NCBI GenBank assembly: GCA_916048055.1 | Contig: CAJZHL010000019.1 | Location: 868,001-932,000 of the forward strand | Reading direction: 5' to 3' | From: Pedinophyceae sp. YPF-701 | Lineage: Eukaryota; Chlorophyta; Pedinophyceae | DNA length: 64,000 bases | Part shown: positions 7,823 through 52,123 of the stretch, one piece after another | Layout: every line of letters starts with the position of its first letter | Position numbering within the stretch: the first letter of the stretch is position 1 | The notes under the pieces: model-generated | Told to the model about the DNA's origin: nothing | The model's database searches: none | Seen by the model: only the letters and a program-made list of their open reading frames with translations | Program-made: the position numbers and the translations under genes

Positions 7823-8463
7823 ATGCCTCCGAGGTCGTTCAAGGCCGCCGAGCGCACACTAGTGTGCGTATTGCAAGCACTGTCACATAACCGGCTCGTA
7901 ATCGAACTCAAAAACGGATCCACAGTGACGGTGAGCCTTTTGTTTCCCGCATGCTCCCATAATGAAGCAACGAAGCCCCTGGTGATCATCATCGCTCGCT
8001 TGTCGACTCCCACGCACCTGCAGGGCCTCCTGACGCAAGTCGAGGAAGACATGAGCATGACTCTCGAGGACGTCGAGGTCCGCGATCCAAGCCAGGGCCG
8101 AGACGCTCGCGGTCGCTCACTTTCCATGCTGTATGTCAAGGCACGCGCCGCAACCCCACCCACCGCAGCAGCCCCGGCCGCAACCACACTGCGTGGCACC
8201 TACCGCCTCCTGGCCATGCCCATCGTTGCGTCGGCGATCCCTGCGGGTTTCGCGCCGATGTTGTGTCAGTTGCTAGTCGTTGTGTTCTTTGGTTGCAGGG
8301 GAGGACTGTCAAGTTCGTGCATCTTCCGGGGAACGTCGACGTGTCGGACATGGTCGAGCGGCACCGGCGCGCGACGGTGCAGAGGCAGCGCGAGGTCCTG
8401 ACGGCCGCCCACGCCCGCCTCCCCAAGGGCGACGGCGGAGCGGCAGCGGCAAACGACACGTAG
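7823..8463 (+). CDS. Sm-fold protein, LSm10-like
   Basis: Three exons, 7823-7930, 8024-8140 and 8299-8463, give 129 residues. Sm1 motif: RLVIELKNGSTVTG..., then EEDMSMTLEDVEV, the usual D-x-M-N-like stretch with Ser in place of Asn. Sm2 motif: LYVKGRTVKFVHLP, i.e. the conserved [ILV]xGxxV(R/K)[FY] block. The long helix after Sm2 (VSDMVERHRRATVQRQR) and the HLPGNVDVSDM stretch resemble LSm10 of the U7 snRNP more than SmD1. An SmD1 or other LSm paralogue remains possible. The second intron has a GC donor (AAG|GCACGC). A GT alternative three codons upstream would delete the conserved residues just before the Sm2 glycine, so the GC donor is preferred. It should act in an RNP in the nucleus. A histone-mRNA processing role is inference. 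Confidence 0.72.
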
Positions 8464-8654
8464 CGGCCGCAACGCCGCACGACGGTGCTCTTCTCACCGT
8501 GCGAGGAGGAGGGGAAGGGGGGGGGGGCGTACGTACTACGGTTGGTAGGGCAGCACGCAGTCGAGGCTGTCAGATTCATCCGCGAACATCGAATGCCAAC
8601 TGCGGAGTCGTTTTTCGTCACAGACTAAGCGGGCCACGTGCCCCGCGCACGTGC

Positions 8655-11235
8655 CTACGACGCAGCCGCGTACACGGCCTCCAGGCCGAGCGCGTGCGCC
8701 GCAGCGCGTAGCACCGCCGCCTCGCCCGACGCAATGCCCATGTTGACGCCGGCGCGGGACGTCGACCACCCGAGCGGCTCCCGCAGCACCGCCGACACGT
8801 GCCCGTCCGGCCGCACGACCACGGGCCCGACGCAGCCCGGCAGCCCCGGCCAGCGCGCCGCGACGTCGCGCACGCGCTCCGCCACCCCTGACTCCGCTGC
8901 GCGAGACTCCCCCTCCCCACTCTCGACCACCACCGCCTCCACGAGCCCCTTCAGCGGGCCCGCCTTCACCGCCGCGCACTCCGACGCCACCGCCTCGTCC
9001 CACGCGCACCCGCCGCGGCACAACACGAGCGCCACTGGTTTGTCGTTGCGCACCAAATCGAGGGTCGACATCTCTGTGATGCTTCCCTCCGCGCCGCGGC
9101 GCTCGATCGCGACGTGCGGCATCCGTCCGCCCATGCACACCTCCTGCACCCACGGCGCGCCGCCGCCGCCGCCGCGCTTGTGCCGCCCCTCGTGGACGGC
9201 GGGCCAGCCCCCTCGCCCGTACGTGTAGCCGAGGTCGTGCTCGGGGAACTGCAGCCGCAGCGAGGTCTCAGGGCCGAGGGCGCGGGAGAGCGCGGCGCGG
9301 CGCGCCGGCCCGAGGGGCCCACGTGTGCCGGAGAAGGCCTGCCCGACTGACAGCGCTGCGCTGAGGGCGCCCGACGTCAGGAACGAGGGGAGCCCGAGGT
9401 TCTTCGAGGCGGACTCGAGCGCGCCGCTGACGAAGGACGCGGCCCGCGGGTCCAGTCCGAGCGCGGCGGGGACGCGCGCCGCGCCCTGCCAGTTGGCAAC
9501 CGAGAGATCGCAGTTGGCACGGCCGATGGCGCGCCGCTCGACGACGTACGCGTCCAGGAGGGCGCTCGCGGGTGCGCCGTGGTGGAGGATCGCTGCGAGG
9601 CGCCACGCCAGCGCGTGCGCGTCCTGCGGTTGCGGCATCGATGGCGAAACACGCATGTCGGTGCGCGAATGCGTAGCTGATCTTGGGGGCGGCCTCGAGA
9701 GCACACGCGACGCACATCGGCGCGATGTATCAAGCGAGGATACGTTCCGGGTCTCCACGGCCATGCAAAGGCGCCGGAGCTCACGCAATCGATCAAGTGT
9801 GGCTGCAAGCACTCGCCTGGACGCCCGTGTTCATTCCGAAGCCCCCGGCCGGCGGGAAGCGGTGCGCGGCGTCGCCCGCGAGGACGATGTGCCCCGCGCG
9901 GTACGTCTCCGCCACCTCCGCCGACATCGTCCACGGCCGCACGTCCAGCACCTCGAGGTCGGTCAGCTGCGCGCCCGCCGCTGCCCGTACCACGGCCGCA
10001 ACCCTCTCCGTCGTGAAGTTCCGCTCGGGCGTCTGGTGCGGAGGGAAGTACGGTATCTGCACGACGAACTCCCCGCGCCGCAGGTCGTGCGCGATGAGCA
10101 CCGCGATCGCCGCGGGGCCGTAAACGAAGTACAACATCGCAGTCCTCCCTGACGTCAGCGCGGCGTCCGCGAGCTCCCGCGACACGACGTGCGCGCTGAT
10201 CAGGTGCTGCAGCGCCGGCTCGCCGACCATCTGGATCCCGGCCAGCCCGCGCACCGTGCTGTGCGCCCCGTCCGCGCCCACAAGGTACCGACACCGGAAC
10301 ACACGCCGCTCCTCGACCCCCCCCGCGCCCTGCCGCGCAGCCTCGACCTCGAGCAGCGGCCCAGGCCCCGCCCTGCCCTCCGGCGGCGCGTCCCACGGCC
10401 CCGCGATCCCGGCGTCCACTCCGGTGAGCGCCGCGATGCCCAGTGAGGCGTGCACGTGGCCGGCGTGGAGGTCCTTCGCGTCGGCGGGCGGCTCGTCCTC
10501 GCGGTCGGCGTCCGCGGGGACGTCCTGGGCGGCGCGGACGTCGAGGACGCGCCAGCCGCGGCGCACGGCGTCGGGCCCGCCGACGGCGGTGGCGTGCTGC
10601 GCCAGGAGCTCTACCAGCCGTGGCTGACTCAGGTGGGCCGGGGCGACGGGGCTGGCGGACGCGTCGGACTCGCGCGGCGCTCCCGGGGCCGGCGCGCCGA
10701 CGCGGCCGTCCGGGGGCGCGCCGGCGAAGTGATCGACGGTTGCCAGGGGCTCGTCAGACATGGTTTCGCAATATATGAAACGCCGCCACTGCTCGAGTGG
10801 CGGGGACTCGGCCGCGACGGCCGCGTCGAGGCCCCGCATGTGGCGCAGGACCTCCATGGTGCGGTTGTTCACGAAGTGCGCCGCGGGGTGCGTCGAGGGT
10901 GCTTGTTTGGCCTCCAGGACAACGGACGGCACCCCGTAGCCCGACAGGAGGCCGGACAGCGCGAGGCCGGTGGGTCCGGCGCCAGCAATGACGACGGGGA
11001 TATCTTCCGCGTCGCCCGCGGGGCTCGCGGTGGCGGACGCCATGCGCGTTCCGTGCGGGGCAACGGCCCCAGTGCGCGGCCGGCCACCAGGCGGGTGTGC
11101 CGCGCCGAAATCGCGGGCTGCCGCGGACGGGGCGATGCGGGAGAGGTGCTGCCGCTTCAGGACGGGATCGATCGCGTCGGAGAGCCACGGCAGCGCGCGC
11201 GACGCGGCCGCGGCGCAGCTCCGGTACAGGCCCAT
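8655..11235 (-). CDS. FAD-dependent aromatic-type monooxygenase
   Basis: Two exons, 11235-9817 and 9623-8655, give 795 residues. The three signatures of class A flavin monooxygenases are present in order: the Rossmann GAGPTGLALS near residue 85, the DG motif YLVGADGAHSTVR, and the GD motif HIVLAGDAAHRFPPAGGFGMNTG. The last continues across the intron into DAHALAWRLAAIL, exactly as in MhpA and phenol-hydroxylase relatives. The second exon has the usual variable C-terminal region. At 795 residues it is longer than typical (500-650), with about 80 residues before the Rossmann fold that could be an organelle presequence. The intron has a GC donor (CAG|GCGAGT) and GCAG acceptor; only this join restores the motif. 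Known relatives hydroxylate phenolic or quinone substrates using NAD(P)H. The substrate here is unknown. Confidence 0.85.
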
Positions 11236-11734
11236 GGCCCACTCGAGCCGTGAGGCTCGCAATTGCAGCCCTTCTTTTGGGTCTACCAGCGCACGTGGAC
11301 AGATAATCACGATACGCGACGAGACGTGCGCGGGAAGGAGACACGCTGGGCCTGAAACGTCCGCAGTGCGACACGGGCACGGCCGCGCTGCCCGCGCCCT
11401 TCGCTTCTATCGAACCGCGAGGGGGTCGAAACGAGTTTGGACGGCAGGGTGCGCTGCGATGCTGTCCGGCGCCCCGGGGCAACGAGGAGCCGCCCGTCAC
11501 CACAGGCCTGAGTCATGCGCGCCTGACATCGACAACTTATGACTAGAGTACAAGTCATGTTCCTGACAGCGGTTGTCGGGTAGCGCCGCGCGTCGTAGGA
11601 GGACGCCGGACTCACGGCAGTGCCAGTGGGCCCGGACGAAGACGTTCGAGATGTCGCGGACGCGGGTTGCGGGCTGGTAGCGATCTGGGTGTGCCGGAGA
11701 GAGGGCCGAGGCCAGGCAACCGCGCGCGTGGACG
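11236..11734. other. Divergent promoter region, monooxygenase and YaaA genes
   Basis: 499 bases between divergent starts. I see no clear regulatory motif. Confidence 0.4.
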
Positions 11735-12822
11735 ATGATCGTCCTGCTCAGTCCGGCCAAGACGGTCGACCAGAGTGATCCAGACTTCACGGTCCGCTCG
11801 GGCACCGAAATCACCGCGCGACTTGCCGCCGCGAGCGTCGCACCGTTGCCAGTCCTGGCAGCGGTGCAGCTGCCTCACCCACCGCTACCCTCTTCGTTCA
11901 ACTGTCGTCAACGTGCAGGAGAAGTCGAGCATTCCCTTTCCCGCCGAGACAGCCAAGCTCGTGGCCCAGTTGAAGGAGATGAGCAAGCAGGACTTGCGGT
12001 CCACTCTGGGCATCTCCGACAACCTCGCGGCGCTCAACCACGAGCGCTACGCCGGCTGGGAGGACCAGAAGGAGATGCAGTGCGCGTTGCTGTTCGACGG
12101 GGAGGCGTACAAGGGTCTGCGCGCCAGGACGCTCTCCCCCGAGGACCTGCGCTACGCCCAGGAGCACCTGCGGATCCTCAGCGGCCTGTACGGCATCCTC
12201 CGGCCGCTCGATGCCATCAAGCCGTACCGCCTTGAGATGGGCACGAAGCTCTCGGGCCCGCACGGTGCGCACACATTCCTTGCCTGCTGTGATGTCGTTC
12301 GCAAACACGTGGTGGCCCTGCGCGACTCACGCGCCCGACCATCCGCGCACGCCGCTCGCAGGCAAGGATCTGTACGCGCTGTGGGGCCCTCGGAACGCCA
12401 AGGAGATAAACAAGGCTTTGGCTGCGCAGAAAGACCCCAAATCTCGACTTGTGGTGTCGTGCGCCAGCGCAGAGTATCTCAAGTCGGTGCGCGTGGCCGA
12501 CCTGGAGTACCCGCTCGTGCACTGCGTGTTCCCAGGGCCGGCGGTGTACGCGAAGCAGGCGCGCGGGGCGATGGTGCGGCACATCATCGAGAACAAGATC
12601 AACGACCGCGCCGGGCTGGAAACGTTCACCGGCGCGAACGGGGAGTGGCGGCACGACCCGGAGGCGTCGGGCGAGCACGAGGTGGTCTTTGTGCGGGACC
12701 CGGGTGCGGCGAAGGGCGCGGGGCGGACGGCGGCGAGGGCGGCAGGGGGCGCGAAGCGCAAGGCGGGTGCGGCGCAGGCGGACGGCGGGGCGAGGAAGAC
12801 CAAGGCGAAGAAGAAAGCGTGA
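11735..12822 (+). CDS. yaaA: YaaA (UPF0246) peroxide-stress family protein
   Basis: Exons 11735-11791, 11919-12264 and 12362-12822 join in phases 0 and 1 to give 287 residues. Diagnostic features are the N-terminal MIVLLSPAKTVD, the central LSGLYGILRPLDAIKPYRLE followed by MGTKLSG, then GKDLYALWG across the second intron, LVVSCASAEYLKSV, and a C-terminal ARGAMVRHIIEN block. E. coli YaaA lowers free iron and limits DNA oxidation under peroxide stress, and the structure suggests a DNA-binding cavity. Unlike bacterial members, this protein continues with about 35 residues of Ala/Lys-rich tail ending KTKAKKKA, which resembles a nuclear localisation or DNA-contact tail. It lacks an obvious transit peptide. 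Family call is firm. A nuclear role in oxidative DNA protection is inference. Confidence 0.92.
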
Positions 12823-12956
12823 CGCCGTGTAACAGCAGGCCGATCCGCTGGAGCACAGGTGGTGGCGATGCCATGGCACTTTGGATACTCGCCACGCCCC
12901 GCAATGCGCAGAGGCATGTGTTGGTTGTTTGGGCGCTGACGTGTCGCATGTGCAGC

Positions 12957-15900
12957 CTACAGGAAGTCGAGCACGGGGCCGAGGTCGCGGGCCGTGCCGC
13001 TCGATGCGGCAGCCCCGGTCTTGGCGCGCTTGTGCGTCGGCCCGTCTCCGTCTCCGGCGGCGATTGCGTTTGGCGTGTGCGGTGCGCCACCGTCGCGCGG
13101 CGCGCTTTCGCCTCCGTGGCTCGCAGTCTGCTCCACAGGACGCAGGGTGGCGTGGTCGGAGGTTGGGCCTGCTTCGTTCGCGGCAGCTGGCAGCGGCTGG
13201 GGCACCAGGGTGGGGGGGGAATCCTGGTCCTCGTCAGCATCGCTGTCGTACTGAATCGTCAGGCAGTCGATGAGGCGCTGTCGGACGACCTCGGGGTCGT
13301 CGCGCTCTGCGGTGCAGTGGACCAGAACACTTGCTTTCTCGATCTTGATTCGATAAGACATATATTTTTGTCTTTCGTGGTATTCCTGACGGCTGTCACG
13401 CTGCCTGGGCTCCCTGGACGAGACACGGGGCAACGCACCTCGGTCGAAGGTGCGGGCGATCTGCTTCGCCTCGCGCATGCTCTGCTCGCGCAGCTCCAGG
13501 ACACGTGACTTGTGTTGGGGCGGAGGCACGGGCGCGCCGCTCTCGAGGCACGCCGCGATCTGCGCGGCGCGCTGGACGATCTTCTCGGGTATGCCGTGCA
13601 CCTGCACGCACGCGCGATGCACAACGCGCGGGATGGGGGACTCGAGGATTCCTCGAAGTAAATGCAAAACCTCACTGCCGAAACGACGACAGGTTGTTGC
13701 GTCTCTGCATCTGCGTGGCAGCACGCCGACGCCGAGCTCCTTACCCGCGCGCAGTGGATCCCGTACGACGGCGCGAGATGCCCCGGCACGAGCTTGAACA
13801 GATACTTGACCTCCGCGGGCAGGTATGACCCAGAAACATCCCCCCCGGCCCCCGACGCACCGCCGCGGTCCTGCTCCACGCGGTACGCCATCGTCAGGAA
13901 CTCCATGCTCGGCGTGCGCGGCAGCACGTCCTGACTCAGGAGCTCCTGGAAGTGCGTGACCACGAACGCGCGCGGAGCGGGAACGACGCCCCTGGCGAGG
14001 TACTGGATGCACCCGGCGAGCAGCGCCGCGCCGTCGCCGGCGAGCGTGCCCTTTCCGAACTCGTCGAGCACCACGATGCTCCGCGGCGTCGCCGCGCGCA
14101 GAATCGACCCCACCCGCGTCAGGTCAGTCAGGAACCAGCTGGACCCGATCTTCGCGTTCATGCCCACGCGCGCCGGCGTCTGCGCCGCGATGCGGTCCGC
14201 GAGCCCGACCACGGCCGCGTCAGCGGGCACAAACGATCCCACGTGCGCGAGATACGCGATTATTGCGCAGCCGCGCACGTGCACGCTCTTGCCGGACTGA
14301 TTCGGGCCGGTGACGACCTGCACGCGGCCTGCGGCGTGGTCCATGTGGCAGTCGTTCGCGACGAACGGGTCGCCGCGCTGCTCGACGGCGATCTGAGAGA
14401 GCAGGTGGCGCCCATTCGTGATTTTCAGGACAGGGTCTTCGACCACCTCCGGACGAACGAGGTTGTGCGCCTGCGCTGCAGGAGTCTCGACCGCGGAGCC
14501 AGACGCCATGAGCGCGCGTGCGGCTCCACGCCGGGCGCGACAGTCGCTGCGTGGTTGACACGAGGTCGCTGCAGTCGCGCTGTCAGTTGGGATGCGGCGC
14601 GCGTGCCTACCTGCGGACGCGAGCGCCAGGGCTGCGTCAACAGCGCCGACGGCCGCCGCGGACGCTTCGAGCGCCGGGCGCGACTCCGTGGACAGCCGCG
14701 TGACGAGCTCCGACAGCACCGCGCGCTCCACGTCACGGATGTTGTTCAAGACGTCCCCGAACTCCGCGTCCAGCTCGGCGCACGCTGCGCAGCAGCACAC
14801 GAGATGCGCGCAGCACGGTGACAGGAACGCTCGGGTCCCGAGCACCGGCATGGTGCAATCGGTTGCTTTCGAGCTGGCAATTGCATTGCAGTCAATTAGG
14901 CTTTTCAATTGAAGCTGCAACTAGCGCTTTGCGGCGGCGCACCGGCGGTGTAGTAGAACGTCGAGGGCTTGCCGCCCTCCTCGGGCCCCTGCATGACGAA
15001 CTGCCAGTCCGGCAGGTAATCGAGCACGTCCTGCCCGGGGATGGGGCCGCGCACCCGCATCAGGTACCCAGTCCCGGGACAGTACTCGCACGTCCACACC
15101 TGGCCCGCGCACCGACGCGCCGCGAGCGTCTCCGGCACGCGACGGACCTCGGCCTCCGCGACGCGCGTCATCACGTCGCCGAGCATCCCGTAAGAGCCCT
15201 GCAGCACGGACACCAAGTTGTATGAAACACAAGAGACACTCAGCGGATCGGATACCTACAACTCGCGCTGGCGCTTCGGCTCAGATCCCATGCATCCCTG
15301 CTGCGCCTGCCCTCCGCTGCGGGGCGCCGCCTCGCCGCCTCGCTGTCGGCATTGCCTCTTGACGAGAGGCGCACCTTGAGCCCGTCGAGCTCGTCGCAGA
15401 CGCCGTCGGCGATCACCGAGTCGTCCCCGTCCGTGTACTCCTCGCTGAGTATCGTGTGGAGCAGCGCGTGGGTCTGCGCGAGCGCGTCGGACGACAGCGC
15501 ATCGACCAGCTCCTCCAGCAGCGAGGGCGCGCTCGACGTCTCTGCGCGCGGGAAAGGGCCGGAACCCGCGTCGGCGCGAAAGCACGGCGTGCGGAGGCCG
15601 TGCCAAGGCTGCACGGGTGACACGCAAGCGCACACGCGCGTTTCCCGGAGGTCTGAGCTGCGTCATGATTCGTTGTCATGACGTCGTAGAAGTACAACGT
15701 CGTAGAAGTACAACGCGATGCGCGCAGTCGAGGTCGGCGGTGGGCCGGGGCTTTCGCTTCTATCGCGCTGCTGCTCACCGTCAAGGACGTCCCAGTCCCA
15801 CTCCGGGCTGCCCTGACTCAGGGCGGCGGGGGTGTTGCGCGGCCTGGAGGCGGGCGGGCTGAACGGGCTCGGCGCAGCGGGGCTGGCGGCCGGAGTTCTC

Positions 15901-17296
15901 CCGGACCGGTCCGCCAGGGTCTCGCTCGCGATGTGCAGCAGCGCGTGCTTCACCTCGAGGATGCTCGACACCGCCTGCGGGCACCGGGCTCGGCGACCGG
16001 TAACACATAAACACATGCGGGACGATGCTGTTCACGAACCGGAGCGTCCCGCGGGGCGCGCCTTGGCCAGGACGAAGAAGTCTTTGTTCTCGTAGACGCC
16101 CATGGACCGTTCCAGGCGCCGCAGGATGGCTACGACGTCCTTGCAGCCCTTCAGCTTGGGTCGCAGCGCCTCCCGCGCGTGCGCGAGCGCCTCCACGAGG
16201 TCCAGGCGCCGCTCGATCCTCGCCACGCTGTCGAGAGGCCGGACCATCCAGCTGCGCAGGCACCGCGCCCCGACCGGCGTGACGGTGGTGTTGAGCCACC
16301 CAAACACACTGAAGCCCTCCTTGGCCACGCCGATGCCCATGAGGGAGGGGGGGGGCTCCGACTGGAAGATCTGGAGGGAATGCAGCGTCTGCGGGTCGAC
16401 GACGAGGAACCCCTCCGGCGTCAGCTGCGAGAGGCGGGCCAGCACCGGCACACCGTTCTCCGTCTCCAGGGCGTTTTCCTGCGCAGAGAGGCGGCGAAAG
16501 CCCGGAAATCGGAGCTTCAATTTATGAAAGATGCCGTCATCGCGGAGTAAGGCCGCGCGGCGCGGCGCAGGGTGCAGTTGGCGCTTGCCCGTTCGAGGAT
16601 GCTGATGAGGCCGCCGAGGGCCGCGAGCTGCTGGTCCGCGTCCGTGTCGATGAGGGTGCGCAGGTACGCCCAGCGCTGGCGGGCGTCGACGAGGCCGGGC
16701 GGCATGCCCTGGCATTCGAGCGAGATGAGTTTCGCGTGCACCTCCTTCCTCCCGAAGATCCCGGGGCGCTCCCTCTTGACGACGTACTCCGCGCGATCTG
16801 CGGAGAACGATCCCAGGAACGTGGAAGGGCGGGTCGTGTCGAGCGAAGCAACGGTGCGGCAGCCAAGCGTGTTGCTCGAATAAAAACTACTCACATTGAC
16901 TTTTTGCGTTCTTTCACTGCGAGTCCCGTGCGACAGGGCCGCGGATCGGCACTACAGCCTTGTTATCAGCGTGTCGCGGCGCGGGCGGGTCCATCGCGGG
17001 CTTGCGGGGCACGTAATCGGGCCCGCACCAACAGACGGCGACTTGAGCGCCTCGACAAGGGCGTCCGAGGAGCCCGCGCTCGTCCAGATGAGATCGGGGG
17101 AGACGTGGAGTTTTACGAGCTGGACGGACTGCGTGCAGTCGACGGTGCTCGCAGCCAGGTCGTCGGGGGCCTGGAACACGGCCGCTGAGTTGCGGTTCGC
17201 GTCGTAGCACGCGAAGCCGATCGCGCCACCCCAGGCCACGCAGGCCATGTACATTCCCATCGCCAGGGCCTCCTGCTCTGGCACCGCACCGTCCAT
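12957..17296 (-). CDS. MSH5: MutS homologue MSH5 (meiotic)
   Basis: At least ten exons. From the 3' end: 12957-13306, 13439-13601, 13745-14475, 14611-14784, 14943-15198, 15375-15541, 15779-15974, 16062-16478, 16589-about 16874, and an N-terminal exon starting at the ATG at 17296. The join between the last two is unresolved; the other phases close. Visible domains: N-terminal GGAIGFACYDANRN; core block SLQIFQSEPPPS...GFSVFGWLNTTVTPVG, which matches MSH5 rather than MSH2-4 or 6; Walker A GPNQSGKS; Walker B VVLDEFGKGT; and the PSYGIHCARVHGIPEKIV end of the ATPase. A Ser/Asp-rich tail of about 80 residues follows. Known MSH5 pairs with MSH4 to stabilise crossover intermediates and has no mismatch-repair role. 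Two introns use GC donors (AAG|GCGCGC at 16061, CGG|GCAAGC at 16588), each required by phase and homology. Confidence 0.9.
15681..15712 (+). repeat. 16-bp perfect tandem duplication in an MSH5 intron
   Basis: The unit ACGTCGTAGAAGTACA occurs twice head to tail with no mismatch, inside the intron between the 15779 and 15541 exon borders of MSH5. Confidence 0.9.
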
Positions 17297-22312: not shown

Positions 22313-25300
22313 ATGGCGCAGGACGGGGCGCCTCAGGGCCAGCCTGGGCCGCTGCGTTGGCTGCGCCAGGCGCGCTCGGCAGCGGAGAACCTGGCCTCCG
22401 ACGGGCTCAGGAGCTTCCACCACGCGGTGGGCGAGGCGCGGAGGGCGATCTCGAACGGCAGCGGGCCCGCACGGGACTCCCTTGCGCGTCGTCGGCCACC
22501 CGGGCAGCGAAACGCGACCTTCACGGCGGGCTGGGCCGCGCCGCTGGCGTCCATCAGCGCGGGCGCGGCATCTGCGGGGCATGGATCCATGAGGTTCAGC
22601 TTCTCCGCGCAGCCAATCGCGGAAATCAGCGCCGCGGACCCGCAGAAGGAGCCACCGAAGAGCAGCGAGCCCAAACAGCCGACGCAGAGCAGCCCGCCCG
22701 GCGCGCAGACGGCCGGGAAGCCGGCGCCCGCGGCGCCCGCGCAGGCAGGGCCGTCCGAGCAAGCGACGCCGAGCCCTGAGCCCGCGCCACCGGCCGCGGG
22801 CGCCGCGCCCGGGCCCGCACCTGCTCAGCCGCCTCCGGCCAGCGCCCCCGCCCCCGCACAGCCGCCTGCGGCGCCGACGCCGCCGCCGCCGCCGCCCACA
22901 CGCAAGGAGGACCAGGCCCCCGCCCCGGCACCCGATGCGGATGCCAAGGAAACAGAGGAGCGCATTTTAATCAGTGAGGCAAGTCTCCCACCAAACCCGC
23001 CCAATGCCCGACCGCACAGCCCCACAAGCCGCCCCCATGCAGCCTCCCGGCCATACCACGCACAGAAACACCACGCGGCCCCCAGCTTCGCGCCTCTTCT
23101 CCCGCGACAGGCTCGCTTCCGGCCCACCAGCGTCTGCGGTCGCCAGATCCGCCCACGACAAGCTCGCGCCCGCTCCGCCGACGCAGGTGGACATCCAGGG
23201 CGTCGACGGCGCGCTCAAGGAGGCCGCGGAGGCCGCGCTGGCGACGCGCCCGAACTTCGCCTACACGCAGCGCGACATCCGCAACGACGTCGAACGTTTG
23301 TTCGAAATGGGGTACTTCTCGTCGTGCCAGCCCAAGGCCGAGGACACGCGCGACGGCGTCCGCATCACCTTCGTCGTGCAGCCGAACCCGGAGATCAAGG
23401 CAAGCGGCCGCACCGCCCTGCACGCGCGCGCCGCCCGCGGCGCCTCCCGCCCGCTGCCGTGCGACCGCGCGCGCCCTCAGCGCGCGCCCTCCGCCCGCAC
23501 GCGCTCGCAGGGCATCGTGGTGTCGGGCGCGAACGCGCTGCCGGTCAAGGTGCTCCAGGACGCGTTCGCGGGGCAGTACGGGCGCACGCTCAACTTCACG
23601 GACTTCTCGCGGGCGATCCAGGTGATCAACCGGTGGTACGAGAACCGCGGGCTGTTCGGGCAGGTCGCGGACGTGGAGATGGTGCGCGGCGTCGCGGAGC
23701 TGCGCATCGCGGAGGTCGCGGTGGGAAAAGTGGGGCTGCGGTTCCTAAAGGCGGGCTCCGGGGAGCCTGTGCGGGGCCGCACGCGTCCGGAGATCATCAT
23801 GCGGCACGTCACGACCAAACCCGGCCAGATCTACTCGCTGCAGCAGGCCCGTCGCGACATTGACTCGGGTGAGACCGCACGACCCTCGGCAGCGGCGCGG
23901 GGCTGTGCGAGCGCCCGGCGGGGCCGTGCGGTGCGCCAGGGAGACGCGCTGTCCGCACTCGACTTCGCTCGCTCCGTGTCTCTTCCCTCAGCATGCAAAA
24001 CACCCCCCCCTCCCCTTTGCAGTGTACTCAATGGGGCTGTATGATGACGTCAGCATGGTGCCGACGACGACGGAGGCGAACGGCCCGGGGGCGCCGCAGG
24101 TGGACCTCACGCTGAACGTCGTGGAGCGGCGCTCCGGCGGGCTCACGGCCGGCGGCGGCATCAGCGCGTCCGGCGGCGACGGCGGCGGCAACCCCGGCTT
24201 CATCGGGAACCTGGCGTACTCGCAGCGCAACCTGATGGGCCTGAACCAGAAGCTGACGGCGAGCGTGGAGCTCGGGCAGTCGGACGTGCTCTGCCGGCTG
24301 AACCACACGGACCCGTGGGTGTGGGGCGACCCGCACCGCACGTCGCGCACGGTCACGCTGCAGAACACGCGGACCTCCGCGGCCGCGCTGCTCGGGCGCT
24401 CGCGCGCGGACCTCGAGGACGCCGCGCAGGAGCGCCAGCGCGGCGGCGGCGGAGCGGCGCGCTCGCAGGGCGGCGGCAACGCTGCGTCGCAAGCAGCGCG
24501 GCGAGCGTCGCGAGAGCGCCGAGCTCGAGCGGGATGCGCGTGAGCGGCACCGGCGCGATGAGCGGCGCCGTCGTGGGCGCCGCGGGCGCCGGCGGCGGCG
24601 CGGCCTCCGCGCCGCCCGGCGGCTCCTCTGGCGCGCCGCGCAATGAGCCGCACCACCGCGACCTGATCATCGCGCGCGCGCTGTGCGGCGTGGAGTGGTC
24701 GCGGCCGATCCGCGAGGGCTGGACGGCCGGGGCCGGCGCGACGCTGTCGCGCGTGCGCTGCCTCGACGACGCCGGCGTGCCGTGTACGCGCGACCAGTAC
24801 ATGGCCCCGGTGACGTTCTCCGGGACGGAGACGGACCTGCAGGCGGTGTTCAAGGCGCAGGTGGCGTTCTCGCCCGTCGAGGGCGATGCGCAGCTGCTGG
24901 CGTCCGCGGAGTACGCGCCGCCCGGGCCGTCGGAGGCGTGGCTCAACTTTTGGCGCATGCGGGTGCGCGGGGAGCGGCAGCTCCCGATCGGGCCGTGCAC
25001 GCTCGTGCTCGCGGGCAAGGGCGGCACCATTAAGGTACGTGCGGGCGTCCGCGGACCGGAGGCCGCGGGTCGCCGCGAACGGGCATGTCTGCGAGCACGT
25101 GCGGCGACAGTGCGTGACGTTTGCGTGCCGCTCGCTGCTTGCAGGGCGATCTGCCGCCGTACGAGGCGTTCCCGATCGGCGGCACCAACTCCGTGCGCGG
25201 GTACGAGGAGGGCGGCGTCGGCACCGGGCGTCAGTGCCTTGTGGGCTCCGCGGAGCTGCGCTGGCCGCTGTTGGCGCCGGTGGCCGGCTGTGCGTTCATC

Positions 25301-25855: not shown

Positions 25856-26948
25856 TTAGGCCACCGAGCGAGCCTCCGGCGAGAGCGCCGAGCCCGGGCG
25901 CTGCACCAGGAAGCCGGCGCACTGCACCTGGCGGACGTTGTCGAAGCCCACCACGCGGATGTAGCAGCCCGGGAACAGCTTCTTGCAGTTGGCGATCTCG
26001 CGGATGACCTCCTGCGAGTCCGTGCAGCCGAACATGGGCAGCTTGTACATGGTCCAGTAGCGGTTGTCCTGGTACGTCACCGACGCGCCGCCGGCGAAGC
26101 GGATGCAGTTCTCGTTGGACACGATGCCCTGGTCCTCCGAGGCGAACTCGATGCAGGGAACAAAGCCCGAGTTGGTCAGGTAGTCGATCTGGCGAGCGAC
26201 CTCCTGGTCCGTCAGGGGCGGCAGGTACGACATCGTCTCGAAGAACTGGTTGTTGAAGGGGGTCCACACCTGCGGGGCGACGGGCGGGTTGTTGTGCGGC
26301 ACAGAGGTGAGCTCGGGCGCGACGTGGCGGCTTCGCGTGCAGAGCTGGCGGACGGAGAGGGCTCTCAGCAACTACGAGAACGCTGTCGCGTGCAGCTGAT
26401 CCGCAGGGAGCGGCGGCGCGCACGCTGCCGCGGGGTGGAAAGCGCGGCGGCCAAATCCACGGGCCGAGGCTCGCGATGCCCCTGATGGCCGCATCGCTCG
26501 CGCGCACCGGTCTATAGGAGTTAGGTTGTGGCCGGGTGTTCGCCGGTGCGCGGCGGAAATCCGCCACAACGGGGAAAAGGGGGCGGATTGCAGCCCAAAT
26601 CGACCCTGGGCGGCAACGCGGCGACGGGCACGCCCCGCGACGGAACGTGCGCGCACTTGGTCAGGAACGTAACTGAGCGTGCGGAAATGCGCTTGGTTAC
26701 GCGATTGAGCCGGGCCACGGGCCGGGAGAGGCGGCCAGCGGAGTCGATAGGCGGATCCGGCGCGGCGCGCATGGAGGCGCGATCGCGGGTGATGGCTGCG
26801 CGAGGCCGCGACATCAGGTGACAAGGAGCGCGGAAATCGGGGGGAGATGGCCGCCTGAGGGGCCGGGACGCACCCGCATGGCCGAGGCCGAAGCCTTGGC
26901 GACGGGGGCCTTGACGGCGACCTTGGCGGTGGAGATGACAGCGTTCAT
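25856..26948 (-). CDS. RBCS2: RuBisCO small subunit, copy 2
   Basis: Exons 26948-26874 and 26269-25856 give a 162-residue precursor. The mature part is almost identical to copies 1 and 3, with the same intron position after MR and the same 414-base second exon. The transit peptide begins [20 protein letters not shown] and is two residues shorter than in the others. The C terminus reads [11 protein letters not shown], with Ser where the other copies have Ala. The 604-base intron starts GTGCGT and shows no obvious similarity to the introns of the other copies. Oriented opposite to copy 1, with OEP80 between them, so this is not a simple tandem array. Plastid stroma, Calvin cycle. Confidence 0.97.
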
Positions 26949-32662: not shown

Positions 32663-32814
32663 GCGGCCCGATCCCTCGGCCGTCAGTGCCGTCGCTCGCA
32701 TGGCGGAGGGACGTGAGCGCCGGCGCGTTTCGTCGCGCCCCGACTCCTGTCCCTGAGTCATGGATTGTGGCTTGCGATGTACGCAGGCTCGCGCTCCAAA
32801 AGGGCAGGAATATC

Positions 32815-33588: not shown

Positions 33589-33709
33589 GCGCACCCTCGT
33601 GGTGCGCACTGGGGACGTGCGTCGAGGGCCGAGCCGGGTGCAAGCGCGTGCTGTCCGGCGCACGAGGCGACGCGCGAGACCGGCGTCGTGTGATTGCGTT
33701 ACAGCAAGC

Positions 33710-37328: not shown

Positions 37329-38338
37329 TTAGGCCACCGAGCGAGCCTCCGGCGCGAGCGCCGAGCCCGGGCGCTGCACCAGGAAGCCGGCGCACTGCAC
37401 CTGGCGGACGTTGTCGAAGCCCACCACGCGGATGTAGCAGCCCGGGAACAGCTTCTTGCAGTTGGCGATCTCGCGGATGACCTCCTGCGAGTCCGTGCAG
37501 CCGAACATGGGCAGCTTGTACATGGTCCAGTAGCGGTTGTCCTGGTACGTCACCGACGCGCCGCCGGCGAAGCGGATGCAGTTCTCGTTGGAGACGATGC
37601 CCTGGTCCTCCGAGGCGAACTCGATGCAGGGAACGAAGCCCGAGTTGGTCAGGTAGTCGATCTGGCGAGCGACCTCCTGGTCCGTCAGGGGCGGCAGGTA
37701 CGACATCGTCTCGAAGAACTGGTTGTTGAAGGGGGTCCACACCTGCGTGAGGATCGAAGGGCGGCGGGACGCTGTGTGAGACGGGGCCGCGTCGCGCGAT
37801 ACGGGCGGGCGATCGTCGTGCAGTCGACTTTCCTCTCCCCGCGCGCACGGGTCGAGTTGGCGGCGGCAGCGCGTGCGGGCTCGCTGATCTTCGCCGGTAA
37901 CGCGCGTCATCGGCGAAGGAAGCCGCGGACTGGCCCGGGATCGCGCGGGGGGGCGCGGATGAGCAGCGCCCTTGACATTCCGCGGCGCAGCGCGTGCGGG
38001 GCCCAAAACGCAACGAAACTGGGCGTGATGGGGCTAGTGCGGAAAGGACGATCGAGAGAAGGCGACGAAACGGCGCGGGCGGGCCGCGGAAGGCCGCGCC
38101 GGGGGCCGCCAGCACATCGAGTCTATCTCTCGAAGCGCAGGCTCGCGGCGGTGCGGCGCGGCGCCTGACGGGCGCGGAAGCAGTCGGCTCGTGCCACAGA
38201 GCCCGCTAGCTTGCGCAGAGAGGGCCGCGGGCGGCTGTGGAGAGGCAGGGCACGCACCCGCATGGCCGAGGCCGAAGCCTTGGCGACGGGGGCCTTGACG
38301 GCGACCTTGGCGGTGGAGATCTGGGCGATGGCGGACAT
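37329..38338 (-). CDS. RBCS3: RuBisCO small subunit, copy 3
   Basis: Exons 38338-38258 and 37742-37329 give a 164-residue precursor. Exon 1 differs from copy 1 by very few bases (Ser replaces Ala at residue 2), and exon 2 is almost identical to copies 1 and 2, with RFAGG in the loop like copy 2 and [11 protein letters not shown] at the end like copy 1. The mosaic of shared differences points to gene conversion. The 515-base intron begins GTGCGT, like copy 2, but its body is different. Same orientation as copy 2, opposite to copy 1. Plastid stroma. Confidence 0.97.
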
Positions 38339-41903: not shown

Positions 41904-42064
41904 CGCGCCTTGGGTCGGACCAGGCGCACTGCTGAGCGGTTCCAGGGCTCATAGCCTGTGACAGGGCGGTCGCTGCGTGGGACGCAAGTCGCTCCTGAAT
42001 CACACCGGCGGGGCGTGGGCATGCAGTCCGCATCCCCTGCGGCCGCGGCGTCCGTCGCCGCCGA

Positions 42065-45417: not shown

Positions 45418-46747
45418 ATGTTCGATGCATGGAAGGGCGCCATCGCGTCCATGAACGGCGCTATGCAGCACGTGGCGACTAGCCTCCCTGGTGCTCGCGC
45501 TGCTGCCTACCTCGGCGCCCCGGGAACGGAGGCGAACTTGCGAGCCCTCGCGATCTCCACGGGCGTGTTCCTCGGCATCCACCTCCTCTTCTCTCTCCGT
45601 ACGTGACCCCCCCCGCGCCACGCAGCGCTCCCCCTCCCCACCTCTCCCGCCATCGATGCAGGGCCGCCGCGCCCTCGCACCGCCACCGCGGCACCGCGCC
45701 TCCCGCGACCGCGTACCCCATCGCATCGAGCTCCCCGCGGCGCCCCCGCAGCCCCGGCGACGGCCTTCTTCAAGTGGTACTTCGGCCGCAACCCAGACAT
45801 GAGGCGGCACAAGGGGCGGCTCGGGGAGGCCGTGGCGATCGCGCCGTGCAGGATCGCCGGGTTCGTCCACCACGTCCACCAGATCGTCCTCTCCGCCGCC
45901 ATCCTCACGGGCGCGCACGCCAGCGTCATCTCCACCAACCCGTTCATGTATGCCACGGAGCTGACGCGCACCAACCTCGCCATCTCGACAGGTGACGCGC
46001 CGCGCGCCCCGCTCTAGGCAGACCACTCTCTCGCGCGCCCCTGCTCTCGCGTCCGACGGGTTCGGCCTCGAACCGCCTCCGTTGAACACCCCCCTTCCTG
46101 CAGGGTACTTTTTGTACGACATGGGCGTCGTGGCGTACCACTACAAGATCGAGGGGCCCGCGTTCCTCATCCACTCCCTCGCCTGCTCGTCGTCGTTCGC
46201 GCTCATGCTCCTGTACGACCGCTGGCACTACTGGGCGTCGGGCTTCTTGCTGTACGAGGTGTCGTCGCCTATCATCGTGGCGCGCTGGTTCATGAAGGAG
46301 GGCGGCGTGCACACCGAGTACGGCGCTGCGGGCCGCGTGCTGTACGCGCTGAACGGCGCATGCGCGCTCGTCGCCTTCCTGGGCTGCCGCATTGTGTGGG
46401 GCACGTACTTCACCCTCCAGCTGTTCGACAAGCTGGGCATGGCGGAGCGGGGCGAGGTGGTGAACGACGCGCCGAGCTGGGCAGGTGCGGCGGACGACGA
46501 GCCGCGGCGGGCGCGACCGCGTTCGGGATCGCTTCGGCCGCGCGAGAGCATTGGCCCTGGTAACACGCAGCACCACTGTGCGCTAAAACGGCGATACTGT
46601 GTCGTGCGCGCAGGACCGTTCGGGCGGGTGAGCACAGGGACGCTGCTGGCGTTGAACTTCTTCTGGACGTACAAGCTGGTCGTGCACACCTCGAAACCGG
46701 CGCGGAAAAGCGGGTCGCTGGAGGCCAACGGCAAGAAGCAGTCGTGA
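45418..46747 (+). CDS. TLC-domain membrane protein (TMEM56/TLCD4-like)
   Basis: Exons 45418-45598, 45752-45991, 46104-46484 and 46614-46747 join in phase 1 at every intron to give 311 residues. Several membrane helices are visible: ISTGVFLGIHLLFSL, VHHVHQIVLSAAILTG, FLIHSLACSSSFALMLL, LNGACALVAFLGCRIVWG and GTLLALNFFWTYKLVV. Family marks are the DMGVVAYHYKIEG segment, a His in the FLIHSL helix, and LYEVSSPIIVARWFMKE, which fit the TRAM-LAG1-CLN8 fold of the TMEM56 group. The ceramide-synthase Lag1 motif is absent, so ceramide synthase activity is not implied. The tail is basic (KPARKSG...NGKKQS), as in ER-retained proteins. It probably affects ER or plasma-membrane lipids. Confidence 0.85.
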
Positions 46748-46894
46748 GGGCCGTGGCACAGCGAGGGGGGTCTCGAGCGCAAGCTTGCGGACCGTGCGCG
46801 TGAACGCAGGTCGCGCGCATCGTTGTTACGTCCTGGCAGGGCCAGGAGCGAGACGACCGAGTCGAAACAAACAGCTGTAGTTCCAATGCCACAG

Positions 46895-49800
46895 TTACAG
46901 GCCGTCGTTCGCGAGGAGCTCGTGCATGGCTTGGCCGACGCGCGAGTTCGACACGTCGGTCGACGGGTCGCGGACCTTGTTGGCCAGCATCGTTGACACG
47001 CGCGCCTGCAGCTCCCGCACCAGCACCGCCACCTTCCCAGGCGCCTTGAACTCCGCGAAGCCGTCCACCTTGATCAGACCCTCGTCGTGGTGCACCGTCA
47101 GCTCGCCTCCGAACAAGAGCACCGCGTACACCGGCACCATCGAGCTCTCGCGGATAAACACCTTGCTCGTTTGAACGCACTCTGCACACGAGGACGGGCA
47201 GCGCTCACCGCGTAAGCGAAGCGCAGTTCGATGCGAGCACGCAGTCCGACGCCGGCGCGTCTCAGGACGCGCGTCTCACCTGTGTACACGAGCCAGCCGC
47301 TCTCGAACTTCCCTTGCTTGAAGTTGCAAGATGCTGGGTGCAAAAACACCCTCCCTTTGTCCTTCGTGAAGAACTTGAGCTGGCGCGGATCGTCCCCCTT
47401 CTTCGACTCCACGACCACGCCCTCCCGGATCTTCTCGTACTTGGTTGCCGGGTGCTTCACGCGCACCACCGAGGGGTAGAATCCCGCACACAGCGCCGCC
47501 TTGACCACTCGCGCACTCCGCGCGTGCCTGTCCGCGGGATGCTCGTCCGCGGCGTCCAGCGGCGTCCCCGACGCCACGCGCCGCACGTACCGCGCGTCCA
47601 CGAACCCCGCGCCCTGCAGGACGCGCGCCAAGTCCGCCCGCGCCGCCCTGATATGTTCCAGAGCTTGCAGAGATAGGAAAAACTCTTCTGCGACGACGTC
47701 GCCGGCGCCCCGGCCGCCCTCGTGCCGCGCGCGCTGCCACTTGTCGAACGCAGCCACGACGGCGAGGTGGTCACTCTTGTGCGCGCCGGCGAGCGCGGCT
47801 TTCGCCGCGTCCACTTCGCCACGCTTGTCGGGGGGCGACAGAAACAACGACCGCCCGTACGACAGCGCGGCGGCGATCGTGAGGGCAGGGTCGAGCGCCT
47901 GCAGGACGGCCGCGACGAGGAGCATCTTGCCCACGTGGGGGTCCAGCGGCATCCCCACGAGGTGGAGTCCCAGCGGCAGCAGAGACTCCCCCGGGGGGAC
48001 TTCCGCGCCGCCGTCGGTCTGGCGATGCCGCCGCAGCGCCCGCATGGCCTCGAGCAGCGCAAGGGCGTTCTGAACGGCCTCGGCGGGCGGCGGGGTCATC
48101 GCGCGGCCGAGGGCGGCCTCAACCGCCATGGTGGGCAGAGCGGCCTTGACGCGGAGACACAGGGAGGGCAGCGGCGTGCGCGTCATCTCGGGCTGCTGGT
48201 GCTCCTGCATGACGTCGTTCCAGGTCGTCCGCGAGTAGAGCTTCAGGCAGACGCCGGGGCGGACGCGGCCAGCACGCCCGCGGCGCTGCGTGGCCGCGGC
48301 GCGCGACACCCACGTGAGCTCCAGGCGGGACATGGAGCGGTCGTGGTCGTAGCCCATTTCCTTGGCGCGCCCGGTGTCGATGACGAAGGAGCAGTCGTCG
48401 ATCGTGATCGAGGTCTCCGCAACTGCAAAGTGCAACATACCTCGCGTCGGCTGTGAACGCAAGCCACGGCGGGCGGAAGGACAAATGCAGGTGGACAACG
48501 ATAACTGGCGATCTGTGTCGCATAGCAGAGGGCGACGCTCTTCGAACCACCGCAAAAGACGACGACAGCCGCGCACGCACCGTTCGTGGCCAACACCACC
48601 TTCCTGGTCCCTGCGGGGGGGCGGTCGAACACGCGCCCCTGCTGCGACGGCGGGAGCGATCCGTGCAGGGGCAGCACGTGCAGCGAGCCCCGCGGCACGC
48701 CCCTGTTCGCCGCGATCGCCCGCGCGGTTTTGTTGATCTCCTCCACCCCGGGCAAAAACACCAAAATCGCGCCCCCGGAGCCCTCCGCGGCCCTCGCGCC
48801 CTGCCCGCCCGCCAAGCCGTCCCAGCCAGCGAGCAGCGCGCTCTCGCCGTGCTTCGACGTCGCGCGCACGATGTGCGCCACGGCCTCCGCGATCAGGTCG
48901 TAATTGATTTGTGACTCGTCGATGTTGTGGATCGAAGCCTTCGTCGCATCGGAGAGCTCGGTCGGAGCTGGTGCGCCTGGGGCCGCGCCGCTCGCCCAGC
49001 GCGACGGCACGACGTGCGACGGCAGCGGCCGCAGCTCGCCTCCCCCTTTCTTTGCGTACTTGGACGATCGACCGATCGTGACTCCCGTCATCTCCAGAAC
49101 CTCTTCTAAGAAGAGGTCGCGGACGGGGTGCGCGAGGCCCGGGATGTCGACCATCGCGCTGCTCGGAGCGCGCATGTCGGAGAGGCAGGGGTCGAAATAC
49201 GCGGAGAAGAGTTTCGCATCTGCCGTTGCTGACATCAGGACGACCTTCAGGTGCGGCAGCTGCGGGAGGAGGTCGCGCAGGAGCAGAAGCAGCAGGTCTG
49301 AGTCCGCGGAGCGCTCGTGGACCTCGTCGACGACGACGTGCGTCACGTGCTGCAGCGCCCCCGCTGACGTCAGCTGCCGCAACAGAACCCCCGTCGTGCA
49401 GAACAGCAGCCGCGTGGCGTCCGACCGCTTGCTGTCCAGCCGCACGCTGTACCCGATCGTGCCGCCAACGTCCTCGCCGCGCTCCTGCGCCACGCGCCGC
49501 GCCAGCCCCACTGCGGAGATCCTGCGCGGCTGCGCACAGATGATGTTGCACTCGCCGCCGCGGCCCGCCGCGACCCACGCGTCCAGCAGCGCCTGCGGAA
49601 CCTGTGTGCTCTTCCCGCAACCCGTCGCGCCGCTCAGTACCACCACCCTCGCGTCCTCCACGAGGCGCACAATGCTGTCGCGTCGCTCGAATGCCGGGAG
49701 CGCCTGCTGCACGCGCCGAACCGACGAAAGCCGCGCGTCCGTCGCGATGCGCTTCGCGTGTGCGGCGAGCGCAGCGGACTGGCGCTGCGCCTCCGCAGCG

Positions 49801-52123
49801 CTGCGCTGCGGTCGCCGCCGCTCCTTCCGCCGCGGCTGCGGCGCACTGCGCTGCTCGCTCCCCGCACCCTCCTCGTCGCTCATGTCCGCCATCTGGTCCT
49901 CGATGCTATCCAGCGGCGCAGCATCCATCGCCAGCGTCGCCTCGCTCGCAGCGTCGCCGGCTTCGCTGGCCTGGCTTGGTGTCGGTGCCTCGCTGCCTGC
50001 CTTCGTGGCAGCGCGTGCCGGCTCCGGCGCGGCTCCCGGCGCGGAGATGAAGCTCTGCGGCGCGTGTGCGTGGTGCTTGGCCAGCGCAGCGTCGTCGGAC
50101 AGCACGCCCGACACATGCGACGCGATTTCAAAAGCCATAGGTTGCCCAAGAAGGCGAATGGCAGTCTCGGCGAGCTCCCTGGTGATGGACCGCAGCGCCT
50201 CCCGCGGAACGGCAACGGACGTGATACCGACGGCGGGCAGCTCGGCGGGGTAGCGCGAGCCGCGCGGGACGCGGAAGTGCAGGACGACGGTTGGTACGTC
50301 CCCCCCGCCTGCGTCGGGGCCGAGCGTCAGGTCCATGCCGCCGTCGACGAAGCTCGCGGCGTCCGGGAAGATCGCCTCGATCGCCTCGCGCTCCTCCTGC
50401 CACGCCGCACCGCCCGTCGGACCCTCCATGTCGCCTGTTGCAGCCAAAGACACCCCCCCCGCTGTCGACTCGGCCATCTTGCAGAACAGCCACGCCAGCG
50501 CGGCGTCCCGCAGCCCGGGCATCTCCGCCAGCGCGCTCTCCGCCTCGTGCGCGAAGTATCCCATGTCCGCAAGCGCCGCAACGTCCGCGGGGGTCTCTTT
50601 CGGGACCCCCCAACCCCCCGCAGCGCAGCTCCCCGCGCCCGTCCGCTTCGCCCGCAGCACCGTGATCTGCGCCCCCGCTTCCGGCCGCAGCTCCTTCGGC
50701 AGCCGCGCCTCGGGAACGTGCAGGCACGCCCAGTCCGCGGCCCGACCCACCGCTGCGGCAACGTCCTCCTCCTGCGTCGCGCCCACCCCCTCCGCGGCCG
50801 CCCGCGCGTCCGTCCACGTAAACCCCATCGCCTGCAGCTTCGCGACGACCTCGGGCGCCGCAACCGCGCCCTCCTCGAGCCCCGACGGCCCTGCCCCGCC
50901 CGCGTCCTCGCGCACCAGCGACTCGACTGCGCGCAACTGTTTCGACGACAGCTGCACGCTCTGGGTGTTGCGCGCCTGCTCGGCCTTGATACGGGCGTCC
51001 CTGGCGCTGCGCGCCGCGCGGGCTTCCTCGCGCTGCCGGCGCTGCTCGTCGCGCTGCGCGCGCTGGGCCTTGTCGGCGCTGAGGCGCTGCCAGAGAGGGA
51101 GGAAGTCGGGGGGCAGCACGCGGTCGAGGTTGCGGTCGCCCTGGACGGCGTGGAGCGCGACGAGCGCGGCGTCCTGGATGGCCTCCTGGTCGGACGCGTA
51201 GGTCTTGTCCTTGGGGGCGAAGCAGACGATGTCCTGCGGCGGCGCAGGGCACGGTTGCGTGCAAACATGATTCCTGCCTGAATAGACATCATGATCTCGC
51301 CCATCCGTGGGAACAGATGCGAGACAGGAGAGCAGGGCTCGTCGTGCGGGCCGGCGCGCACCTTGTTCGTGTCTTTCAGGTCCTTGAGGACGGCTTTGCA
51401 CGTGACGCCGCCGTCGTCAGTTTTCCGCGCAGTGAACCTCGGCGTGGGGCGCTTCTGCTGCAGACACCACTCGTGCAGGATCATGCGCGGCGTCTTTCCA
51501 TCGTAGTACCCGGCCTTGGATCCCACGTCGAAGTACTTCTTCTCCTGCGCGATGATTGTATATCTTGAGCTTTTGTTGTGTGTAGCGCCAAGTGGGAGCG
51601 GGGCAGGCTGCCTCGTGCGCATCGCTGCAAGCAGGGTATGGTCGCTCGCAGGGGCGAGAGCGGGATTTCGCGCTTCCTCGCCTTGGTCTGCGCGGCGGAC
51701 GTGGACTCGGCAGCCTCCTCAGTTGCGGCGGCCTCCTCCTCCGGGTGCTGCTTCTTGATGTGCTCCGTCAGCCGCTGCTTTTGCTTGAATATGCGGTCGC
51801 AGTGCGGACACGGCAGCTCCTGATTCCTGCGACACCGGGCGCGAGGTGGCGACGGACCTCGGCGGGGAAGAGAAGGCGTGGCCCCGCAGCACAGCCTCGC
51901 GAGATCCGGACGGTGAGGTGTGCATGCGCGGCGGAATCGAGCCATTGTGTCGCGGCTTGGTGGGGTTTTGGTGCATTACAGCGCTGCATGCGACCGCGCA
52001 CAGGGCGTTGGCGCTGCGTCACCTCTTGTCGACGACCGCCGGGCCTTTCGTGCCGCCGCCGCCTCCTCTCGAGAAGACCTTAGCGGCCTTCTTCTTCTCC
52101 TCGAGGTTCTTCACCTTCCCCAT
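46895..52123 (-). CDS. DExH-box RNA helicase, DHX57-like
   Basis: Six exons, 52123-52023, 51826-51682, 51544-51362, 51233-48581, 48422-47280 and 47181-46895, close in phase to give 1503 residues. Order: basic start MGKVKNLEEKKKAAKVFSRG; a C2H2 finger (CPHCDRIFKQKQRLTEHIKK); KTPRMILHEWCLQQKRPTPR as in DHX29/DHX57; a UBA domain (VVAKLQAMGFTWTDARAA); an RWD domain (EREAIEAIFPDAASF...); then the helicase core with GATGCGKSTQVP, VVDEVHERS (DEVH variant), MSATADAKLFSAYF, ETSITIDDCSFVIDTG and QRRGRAGRVRPGVC; then HA2 and OB-fold regions ending LVRELQARVSTML. The UBA plus RWD pair points to DHX57. Likely cytosolic or nuclear, RNA remodelling or translation. The second intron has a GC donor (AAG|GCGAGG at 51681). 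Confidence 0.9.

Follow-up and report, generated by a model that had tools for sequence, protein, structure and literature searches.

The window analysed here is a stretch of 64,000 nucleotides (C19:868001-932000) of the 27.9 Mb genome of Pedinophyceae sp. YPF-701, which is assembled in 32 contigs; GC makes up 66-72% of the sequence per 4 kb. The current name of the strain is Akinorimonas japonica (PMC12574857). The window contains, among others, genes for an Sm/LSm-type protein, an FAD monooxygenase, MSH5, OEP80, a complex I subunit of the 21-kDa type and ribosomal protein Thx. In each of them at least one intron is predicted to begin with GC instead of GT. The GC-AG introns and candidates are as follows.

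8141..8298, forward strand: GC-AG intron (aag/GCACGC) in the Sm/LSm-type protein gene, placed by homology of the LSM domain
9624..9816, reverse strand: GC-AG intron (cag/GCGAGT) in the FAD monooxygenase gene, HMM posterior 1.00 and homology
15975..16061, reverse strand: GC-AG intron (aag/GCGCGC) in MSH5, posterior 0.9975 and deposited protein P0001
16479..16588, reverse strand: GC-AG intron (cgg/GCAAGC) in MSH5, posterior 0.995 and deposited protein P0001
22436..23186, forward strand: first intron of OEP80, three candidate GC donors sharing the acceptor at 23186, all in phase 0
23400..23510, forward strand: GC-AG intron (aag/GCAAGC) in OEP80 between POTRA regions, posterior 1.0 and deposited protein P0071
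28543..28711, reverse strand: GC-AG intron (gag/GCGAGC) in the gene for the complex I 21-kDa-type subunit, posterior 0.99 and PF10785
30716..30847, reverse strand: probable GC-AG intron (gag/GCGAGA) in a gene without a Pfam match, posterior 0.96
51545..51681, reverse strand: GC-AG intron (aag/GCGAGG) in a gene that an earlier, sequence-only reading of the window named DHX57-like (a putative name), posterior 0.97
56803..56990, reverse strand: possible GC-AG intron (cag/GCGCGC), posterior 0.71, or 0.57 with window-free training
60045..60210, forward strand: GC-AG intron (aag/GCAAGC) in the ribosomal protein Thx gene, posterior 1.00, Pfam and PDB matches

Posteriors are those of a gene HMM that covers both strands, with 3-periodic states for coding sequence, states for introns and intergenic DNA, and stop checks across split codons. 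The donor model spans 6 bases and the AG acceptor is mandatory, so that AG is assumed for every intron. The HMM trained itself from DNA only, without protein knowledge, in a GT-only round followed by rounds in which all 16 donor dinucleotides were free, and its training set consisted of the window plus 200 kb of contigs C1 and C5 chosen blind to content. A second sequence-only model was trained on 240 kb excluding the window, and in a third the donor context was fixed to that of GT sites. The last iteration of the free 16-way fit, window included, assigned about 304 introns to 239 GT, 31 GC, 9 AC, 7 CA and 6 CC donors, with fewer for each of the rest; beside GT, only GC forms a clear class of donors. 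The classes other than GT and GC (AC, CA, CG, CC, GA, AA and rarer ones, each with 0 to 12 expected cases per ~300 introns) are regarded as model noise. At least one such call, the CA donor at 7968, is a model error: read by eye, the full Sm/LSm protein results from an upstream exon joined through a GT donor at 7930. At a posterior of at least 0.9, 16 of 238 calls were neither GT nor GC, and the corresponding figure outside the window, with window-free training, was 12 of 202. Six simulated genomes with 1, 2, 10, 10, 16 and 24 planted GC donors returned 0.2, 3.3, 8.8, 8.8, 13.8 and 22.1, respectively; the estimator is therefore without upward bias if the model is correct. The HMM is violated more by real than by simulated DNA, to an extent that the decoy donor classes gauge.

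Splicing MSH5 at nine introns, seven with GT and two with GC donors, reproduces the deposited protein P0001 letter for letter. The model built by the unaided HMM is 94% identical to this protein across 100% of its length; measured against the deposited protein, its errors include a false GC intron at 13168 (in the run restricted to GT and GC) and a false GT intron at 15906-15844. The intron starting at 16061 is 87 nt long and contains an in-frame stop while that starting at 16588 has 110 nt and would break the frame, which argues against retention of either. Plant MSH5 proteins are ungapped at the first junction in 5 of 9 cases and at the second in 0 of 9, the length of the flanking region being variable there.

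The deposited gene models use GC at 16061 and 16588 and also at 23400 in OEP80. All 75 homologues that span the latter junction do so ungapped. The intron measures 111 nt and has no in-frame stop, so that its retention is excluded by homology only. The first OEP80 intron is placed differently by each source: the donor is 22436 (gag/GCGCGG) in the deposited annotation, 22745 (cag/GCAGGG) according to the HMM and 22979 (gag/GCAAGT) in the sequence-only reading. The posterior of 22745 is 0.92 with the window in the training set and below 0.5 without it. Judged from the sequence, the donor would be GC under all three placements, and a model confined to GT draws an intron with a different donor and acceptor, at 22753-23146.

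At the Sm/LSm gene, use of GC 8141 would join LSMLYVK to GRTVKFVHLP and extend the LSM match to positions 3-65 of the profile (46.8 bits), as against positions 3-42 (29.0 bits) with an in-phase GT at 8078. The sequence-only HMM nevertheless picks GT 8078 with a posterior of 1.0, thereby losing 21 residues; it is the homology of the LSM domain only that points to GC as the right donor here. A search of the deposited proteins with an Sm/LSm query found none, leaving 8141 without an annotation cross-check. The junction at 9816, GMNTGVQ/DAHALAW, reads through the flavin-binding motif and lies within the FAD_binding_3 match. A PDB match (9f5x_l) spans the 28711 junction with a one-residue gap adjoining it. 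The 137 nt intron at 51681 would disrupt the frame if retained; the flanking protein appears unconserved. A strong GC donor absent from the list of the sequence-only reading is 60045 in the Thx gene, where a PDB Thx protein runs ungapped across the junction RGK/VWRG. Two weaker candidates, 30847 and 56990, were also missing from that list; the posterior of 30847 falls below 0.5 under window-free training.

The sequence-only reading had named eight GC donors, and seven of them are supported at the very base proposed. The eighth, 22979, is one of the three GC sites that compete for a single acceptor. Six (9816, 16061, 16588, 23400, 28711 and 51681) were recovered to the base with posteriors of 0.97-1.0 by the HMM trained with the window and keep 0.96-1.0 when the window is excluded from training. 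We regard support as strong for 9816, 16061, 16588, 23400 and 8141 and as moderate for 28711 and 51681. That the bases following GC vary beyond the strict GCAAGT class was correctly seen; GCGCGC, GCACGC and GCGAGG are among the contexts present.

One might suppose that these donors are artefacts, the true donors being nearby GT dinucleotides, the introns being retained, or the C at +2 being an assembly error. By trimming or adding residues one can indeed fit GT-only models to the affected loci, and the choice of the HMM at the Sm/LSm gene would fit such a reading. They come at a cost, however. Besides the loss in the LSM domain, the Pfam Thx match drops from 40.9 to 31.8 bits and falls into two pieces, and the POTRA match of OEP80 drops from 54.8 to 49.8 bits; the decreases are small for MutS_III in MSH5 (77.5 to 75.0 bits) and for PF10785 in the complex I subunit (45.6 to 44.0 bits). 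Outside the window, homology of an AP-1 sigma protein continues across a GC junction for 144 residues ungapped and is broken into two halves by the GT-only model; in an ABC-F protein homology likewise spans a GC junction. With the two MSH5 introns speaking against retention and GC donors present in the deposited annotation, we consider it extremely unlikely that the sites are artefacts. Splicing of these introns in the cell as GC-AG introns is what the gene structures would predict: seven of the eight sites named in the sequence-only reading, 60045, and the AP-1 sigma and ABC-F junctions combine a GC donor, an AG acceptor (assumed by the HMM) and a conserved protein that is kept, as expected of U2-type GC-AG introns, with 51681 assigned by phase and model only.

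How common such donors are depends on where one looks. The expected introns in the window number 77.3, comprising 59.2 GT, 10.0 GC and 8.1 spread over 11 other dinucleotides, which we take as noise; by the window-trained model, 9 of 65 donors in the window are GC. Admitting GC as a second donor raises the log-likelihood of the window by 84.6 nats, compared with 38.0 for the best of 14 other dinucleotides, and GC is therefore above chance. The gain is 137.6 nats against 81.9 for the best decoy in C5 and 216.4 against 142.8 over all outside blocks pooled, but in C1 GC (54.7 nats) lies below AC (67.5 nats). Since decoy dinucleotides lift the likelihood too, part of the GC count must be noise.

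Outside the window, the fixed-context model found GC at 11 of 222 confident GT or GC donors in 270 kb (5.0%; 2.5-8.7%). One of the 11 sites, C1 96974, with an intron of 26 nt, is probably false; without it the count is 10/221. The window-free model gave expected counts of 213 GT and 17.7 GC, or 7.6% of the two together, which becomes 5.3% after noise is subtracted by dinucleotide frequency. Confident sites of this model (posterior at least 0.9) amounted to 181 GT, 9 GC and 12 decoys in C1, C5, C2, C8, C12 and C16 (n=202), to 15 GT and no GC sites in a 20-kb stretch of C19 located 8 kb from the window, and to none in C10, giving 9 GC of 205 (4.4%; 2.0-8.2%). An additional GC intron in the C19 stretch, whose posterior is divided 0.65/0.33 between two GC sites, was left out of this figure. 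Going by the decoys, about 2 GC calls in the set of 202 should be false, which leaves about 7 of 188 (3.7%; 1.5-7.5%). A share of 1% is rejected by the uncorrected count (p = 0.0003), and a share of 2% more weakly (p = 0.02). After noise correction 1% is still rejected (p = 0.003), and 2% no longer is (p = 0.09).

These figures bear on the possibility that GC donors have their usual share of about 1-2% throughout the genome, and that with many windows being read this one holds a cluster by chance. The window exceeds the rest with both models (7/50 vs 9/205, p = 0.020, with the window-free model; 8/58 vs 11/222, p = 0.034, with the fixed context), but both p values ignore that the window was selected for its GC donors. 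The survival of 2% after noise correction leaves some room for a chance cluster, and so do C1, with 1 GC of 78, and four blocks of 10 kb with 0/31. Against it stand the counts outside the window, including 8/81 in the 100-kb block of C5 chosen blind, and the rejection of 1% despite the correction. The explanation is in our opinion unlikely, if not negligibly so. The two 100-kb blocks themselves differ with the window-free model (1/78 in C1 vs 8/81 in C5, p = 0.034, a value that ignores the window's selection), but not clearly with the fixed context (3/86 vs 8/86, p = 0.21). The excess of GC donors is real, patchy within our sample and smaller than the share of about one in eight advanced in the sequence-only reading. 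That share holds for the window (~10/69), where it is a local high in a stretch flagged for that very share; for the genome as a whole 1 in 20-25 is the likelier figure, which is still a few times the plant average of 1.2%. Counting donor dinucleotides beyond the window, as had been suggested, thus bore out a fraction above 1%.

The GC introns do not differ from GT introns by their acceptors, 17 of 19 ending in GCAG compared with 252 of 261. They differ at the donor. With the GT-derived context model, positions outside +1 and +2 match U1 at 4.68 bases on average in the 19 GC donors and at 3.87 in the 261 GT donors (p = 0.0008); removal of the two doubtful sites 22745 and C1 96974 raises the mean to 4.82 (n=17, p = 0.0003). 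An A is found at +3 in 9/19 GC and 44/261 GT donors (p = 0.003), and at +4 in 11/19 and 72/261 (p = 0.007). The GT-derived context prefers G at +3 and C at +4, so that any selection exerted by the model should work against the excess of A observed. The remainder of the donor is thus closer to the U1-complementary consensus in GC than in GT introns. The U12-type donor motif is RTATCCTT, and the GC donors, being AG/GC(A/G)(A/C)G-like, are not of this type. A search of the genome for U12 RNA gave no match, with the control silent as well.

A single canonical U1 gene was found among the best 41 of 363 candidates scored (5′ end AUACUUACCUG, 70.2 bits for a cut-off of 69.5), and a single U6 gene with ACAGAGA among the best candidates scored (75.8 bits). 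The comparison of U1 5′ ends called for by the sequence-only reading thus revealed nothing unusual. A pattern search of the genome for a variant U1 able to pair with C at +2 turned up, besides one canonical U1, a CTTGCCTG match on C28, which we rejected as cmscan reports no U1 match there; the site resembles part of a coding gene. These results make it quite improbable that a dedicated or altered factor (a variant U1, or changed contacts of U1-C, LUC7 or U5/Prp8) eases acceptance of C at +2 in this lineage. Such a factor would account for a GC share above the plant average (1.2% in the portion of PMC6310983 cited), and the C at +4 in ~70% of GT donors, a position at which U1 does not pair, suggests a loose dependence on U1. 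On the other hand, only one LUC7 locus was found, and the extra U1 pairing of the GC donors looks as though U1 still counts.

It has also been proposed for mammals and nematodes that GC donors are maintained for regulated or alternative splicing. What recommends this view here is the precedent in the literature only (cited portion of PMC2490688). Against it, several of the GC donors belong to genes with housekeeping roles (those for Thx, AP-1 sigma and OEP80); we find it very unlikely as an explanation.

We think it likely that these are ordinary GC-AG introns of the major spliceosome, enriched in a GC-rich genome. According to this model they would be introns of the common type that have undergone a T-to-C change at their second base. 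They would pair with the normal U1 despite a single C-A mismatch at +2, which A residues at -2, +3 and +4 would offset by added pairing; the GC-AG introns that occur rarely in other eukaryotes offer a parallel. A normal spliceosome would tolerate C at +2 provided that the remainder of the donor is good, and GC-biased change would supply such donors, high genomic GC (66-72% in the blocks sampled) favouring T-to-C change until they accumulate to ~4-5% genome-wide and ~14% in the window. Recognition by the U1 and U6 found here is predicted from their sequences, and base composition is the presumed cause of the rise. Selection for T must still be strong, since an intron composition of 41% C and 15% T would yield mostly GC if the two were equal at +2. 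Across species, the GC content of splice sites correlates with that of the genome with r 0.24-0.43 (PMC7072748, in the section cited); in mammals a mutational bias was judged not to account for the accumulation of GC (PMC2490688, likewise in part). Within our sample GC content and number of GC donors showed no trend (C1 70.8%, C5 70.1%), although donors are few. The level does not depend on composition only, as this absence of a trend hints and as the haptophyte Emiliania huxleyi shows, which is less GC-rich (65%) and yet has 61% GC donors.

The latter figure comes from Cufflinks transcripts and was ascribed by its authors to the 65% GC genome, according to the passages of PMC4028052 used here. 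As far as these go, the two cases share a GC-rich algal genome, raised numbers of GC donors and nearly unchanged AG acceptors, but E. huxleyi belongs to an unrelated lineage and its 61% contrasts with 4-5% in the pedinophyte (~14% in the window). In the dinoflagellate Symbiodinium minutum GC is nearly as frequent as GT, and GA is used too (extract of PMC4083563). GC occurs beside GT in both organisms; the donors of the pedinophyte are dominated by GT, with no other class above noise. Eurytemora affinis differs in that its unusual donors are GA and GG, not GC; at ~12% they are enough to upset gene models (extract of PMC5714493). Akin to the introns described here are the U2-type GC-AG introns of plants and animals, which also start with GC, end with AG and match U1 more strongly outside +2; a closer adherence to the consensus is known for GC donors (cited portion of PMC2490688). 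Validated plant splice sites comprise 1.2% GC-AG on average (PMC6310983, same portion as above), compared to which the pedinophyte introns are commoner (~4-5% in the outside sample) and their donor context is more variable. GC donors neither equal nor outnumber GT donors, either outside the window (11/222) or within it (8/58). We found no report of GC-AG introns in pedinophytes among the titles and abstracts retrieved, a scope that did not extend to the description of the YPF-701 genome by Repetti et al. (2022, doi 10.1111/nph.17926), and the part of PMC12574857 cited above makes no mention of them.

What we describe is a mild to moderate case of a phenomenon for which a small number of other algae provide precedents, E. 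huxleyi and Symbiodinium being more extreme. We tentatively suggest, on a balance tipping slightly towards doubt, that it represents a stable middle stage, with ~5% GC donors, regional peaks above 10% and one unmodified U1, placing pedinophytes between the 1% level and the GC-majority haptophytes and dinoflagellates. The finding leaves the understanding of splicing unchanged. In practice, gene finders limited to GT would mis-model perhaps 1 in 20 introns here, and more regionally, dropping conserved residues. The small group of lineages in which GC donors are raised gains a green alga, which, if the middle stage is real, would allow composition and a loosened spliceosome to be tested against each other as the driver.

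The frequency of GC donors, that is of introns starting with GC instead of GT, was compared between two 100-kb blocks outside the window, C1:200001-300000 and C5:300001-400000 of the alga's genome (G000). With the gene model trained without the window, GC donors were unevenly distributed, with 1/78 in the C1 block versus 8/81 in the C5 block (p = 0.034), while the model using a donor context derived from GT sites gave a less uneven distribution (3/86 versus 8/86, p = 0.21). The two blocks did not differ in GC content.

Across the whole sample, 252 of the 261 GT introns carried a GCAG acceptor, as did all 13 introns checked in the deposited MSH5 and OEP80 genes. About 70% of the GT donors in the same sample had a C at +4, a nucleotide without the usual pairing to either U1 or U6. 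At L001:1145-1244 (- strand), some 250 bases away from the gene for U1, a long hairpin is predicted; it gave a weak Rfam match to MIR5534, far under the cut-off.

Three genes within the window were also looked at:

7821-8463, + strand, Sm/LSm gene
25856-26948, - strand, RuBisCO small subunit-like gene
37329-38338, - strand, RuBisCO small subunit-like gene

The closest PDB relatives of the Sm/LSm gene are SmD1, LSm2 and U7 LSm10. It may be unannotated, since none of the 72 word-sharing candidates from a large protein search reached E <= 0.001.

The remaining two genes, which we take from their sequence to encode the RuBisCO small subunit, share an intron position with introns of 604 and 515 nt. 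Because their exon DNA is 99% identical across 300 and 72 bases while the introns and 600-base flanks show no significant similarity, the comparison suggests homogenisation confined to the exons, for example via cDNA.
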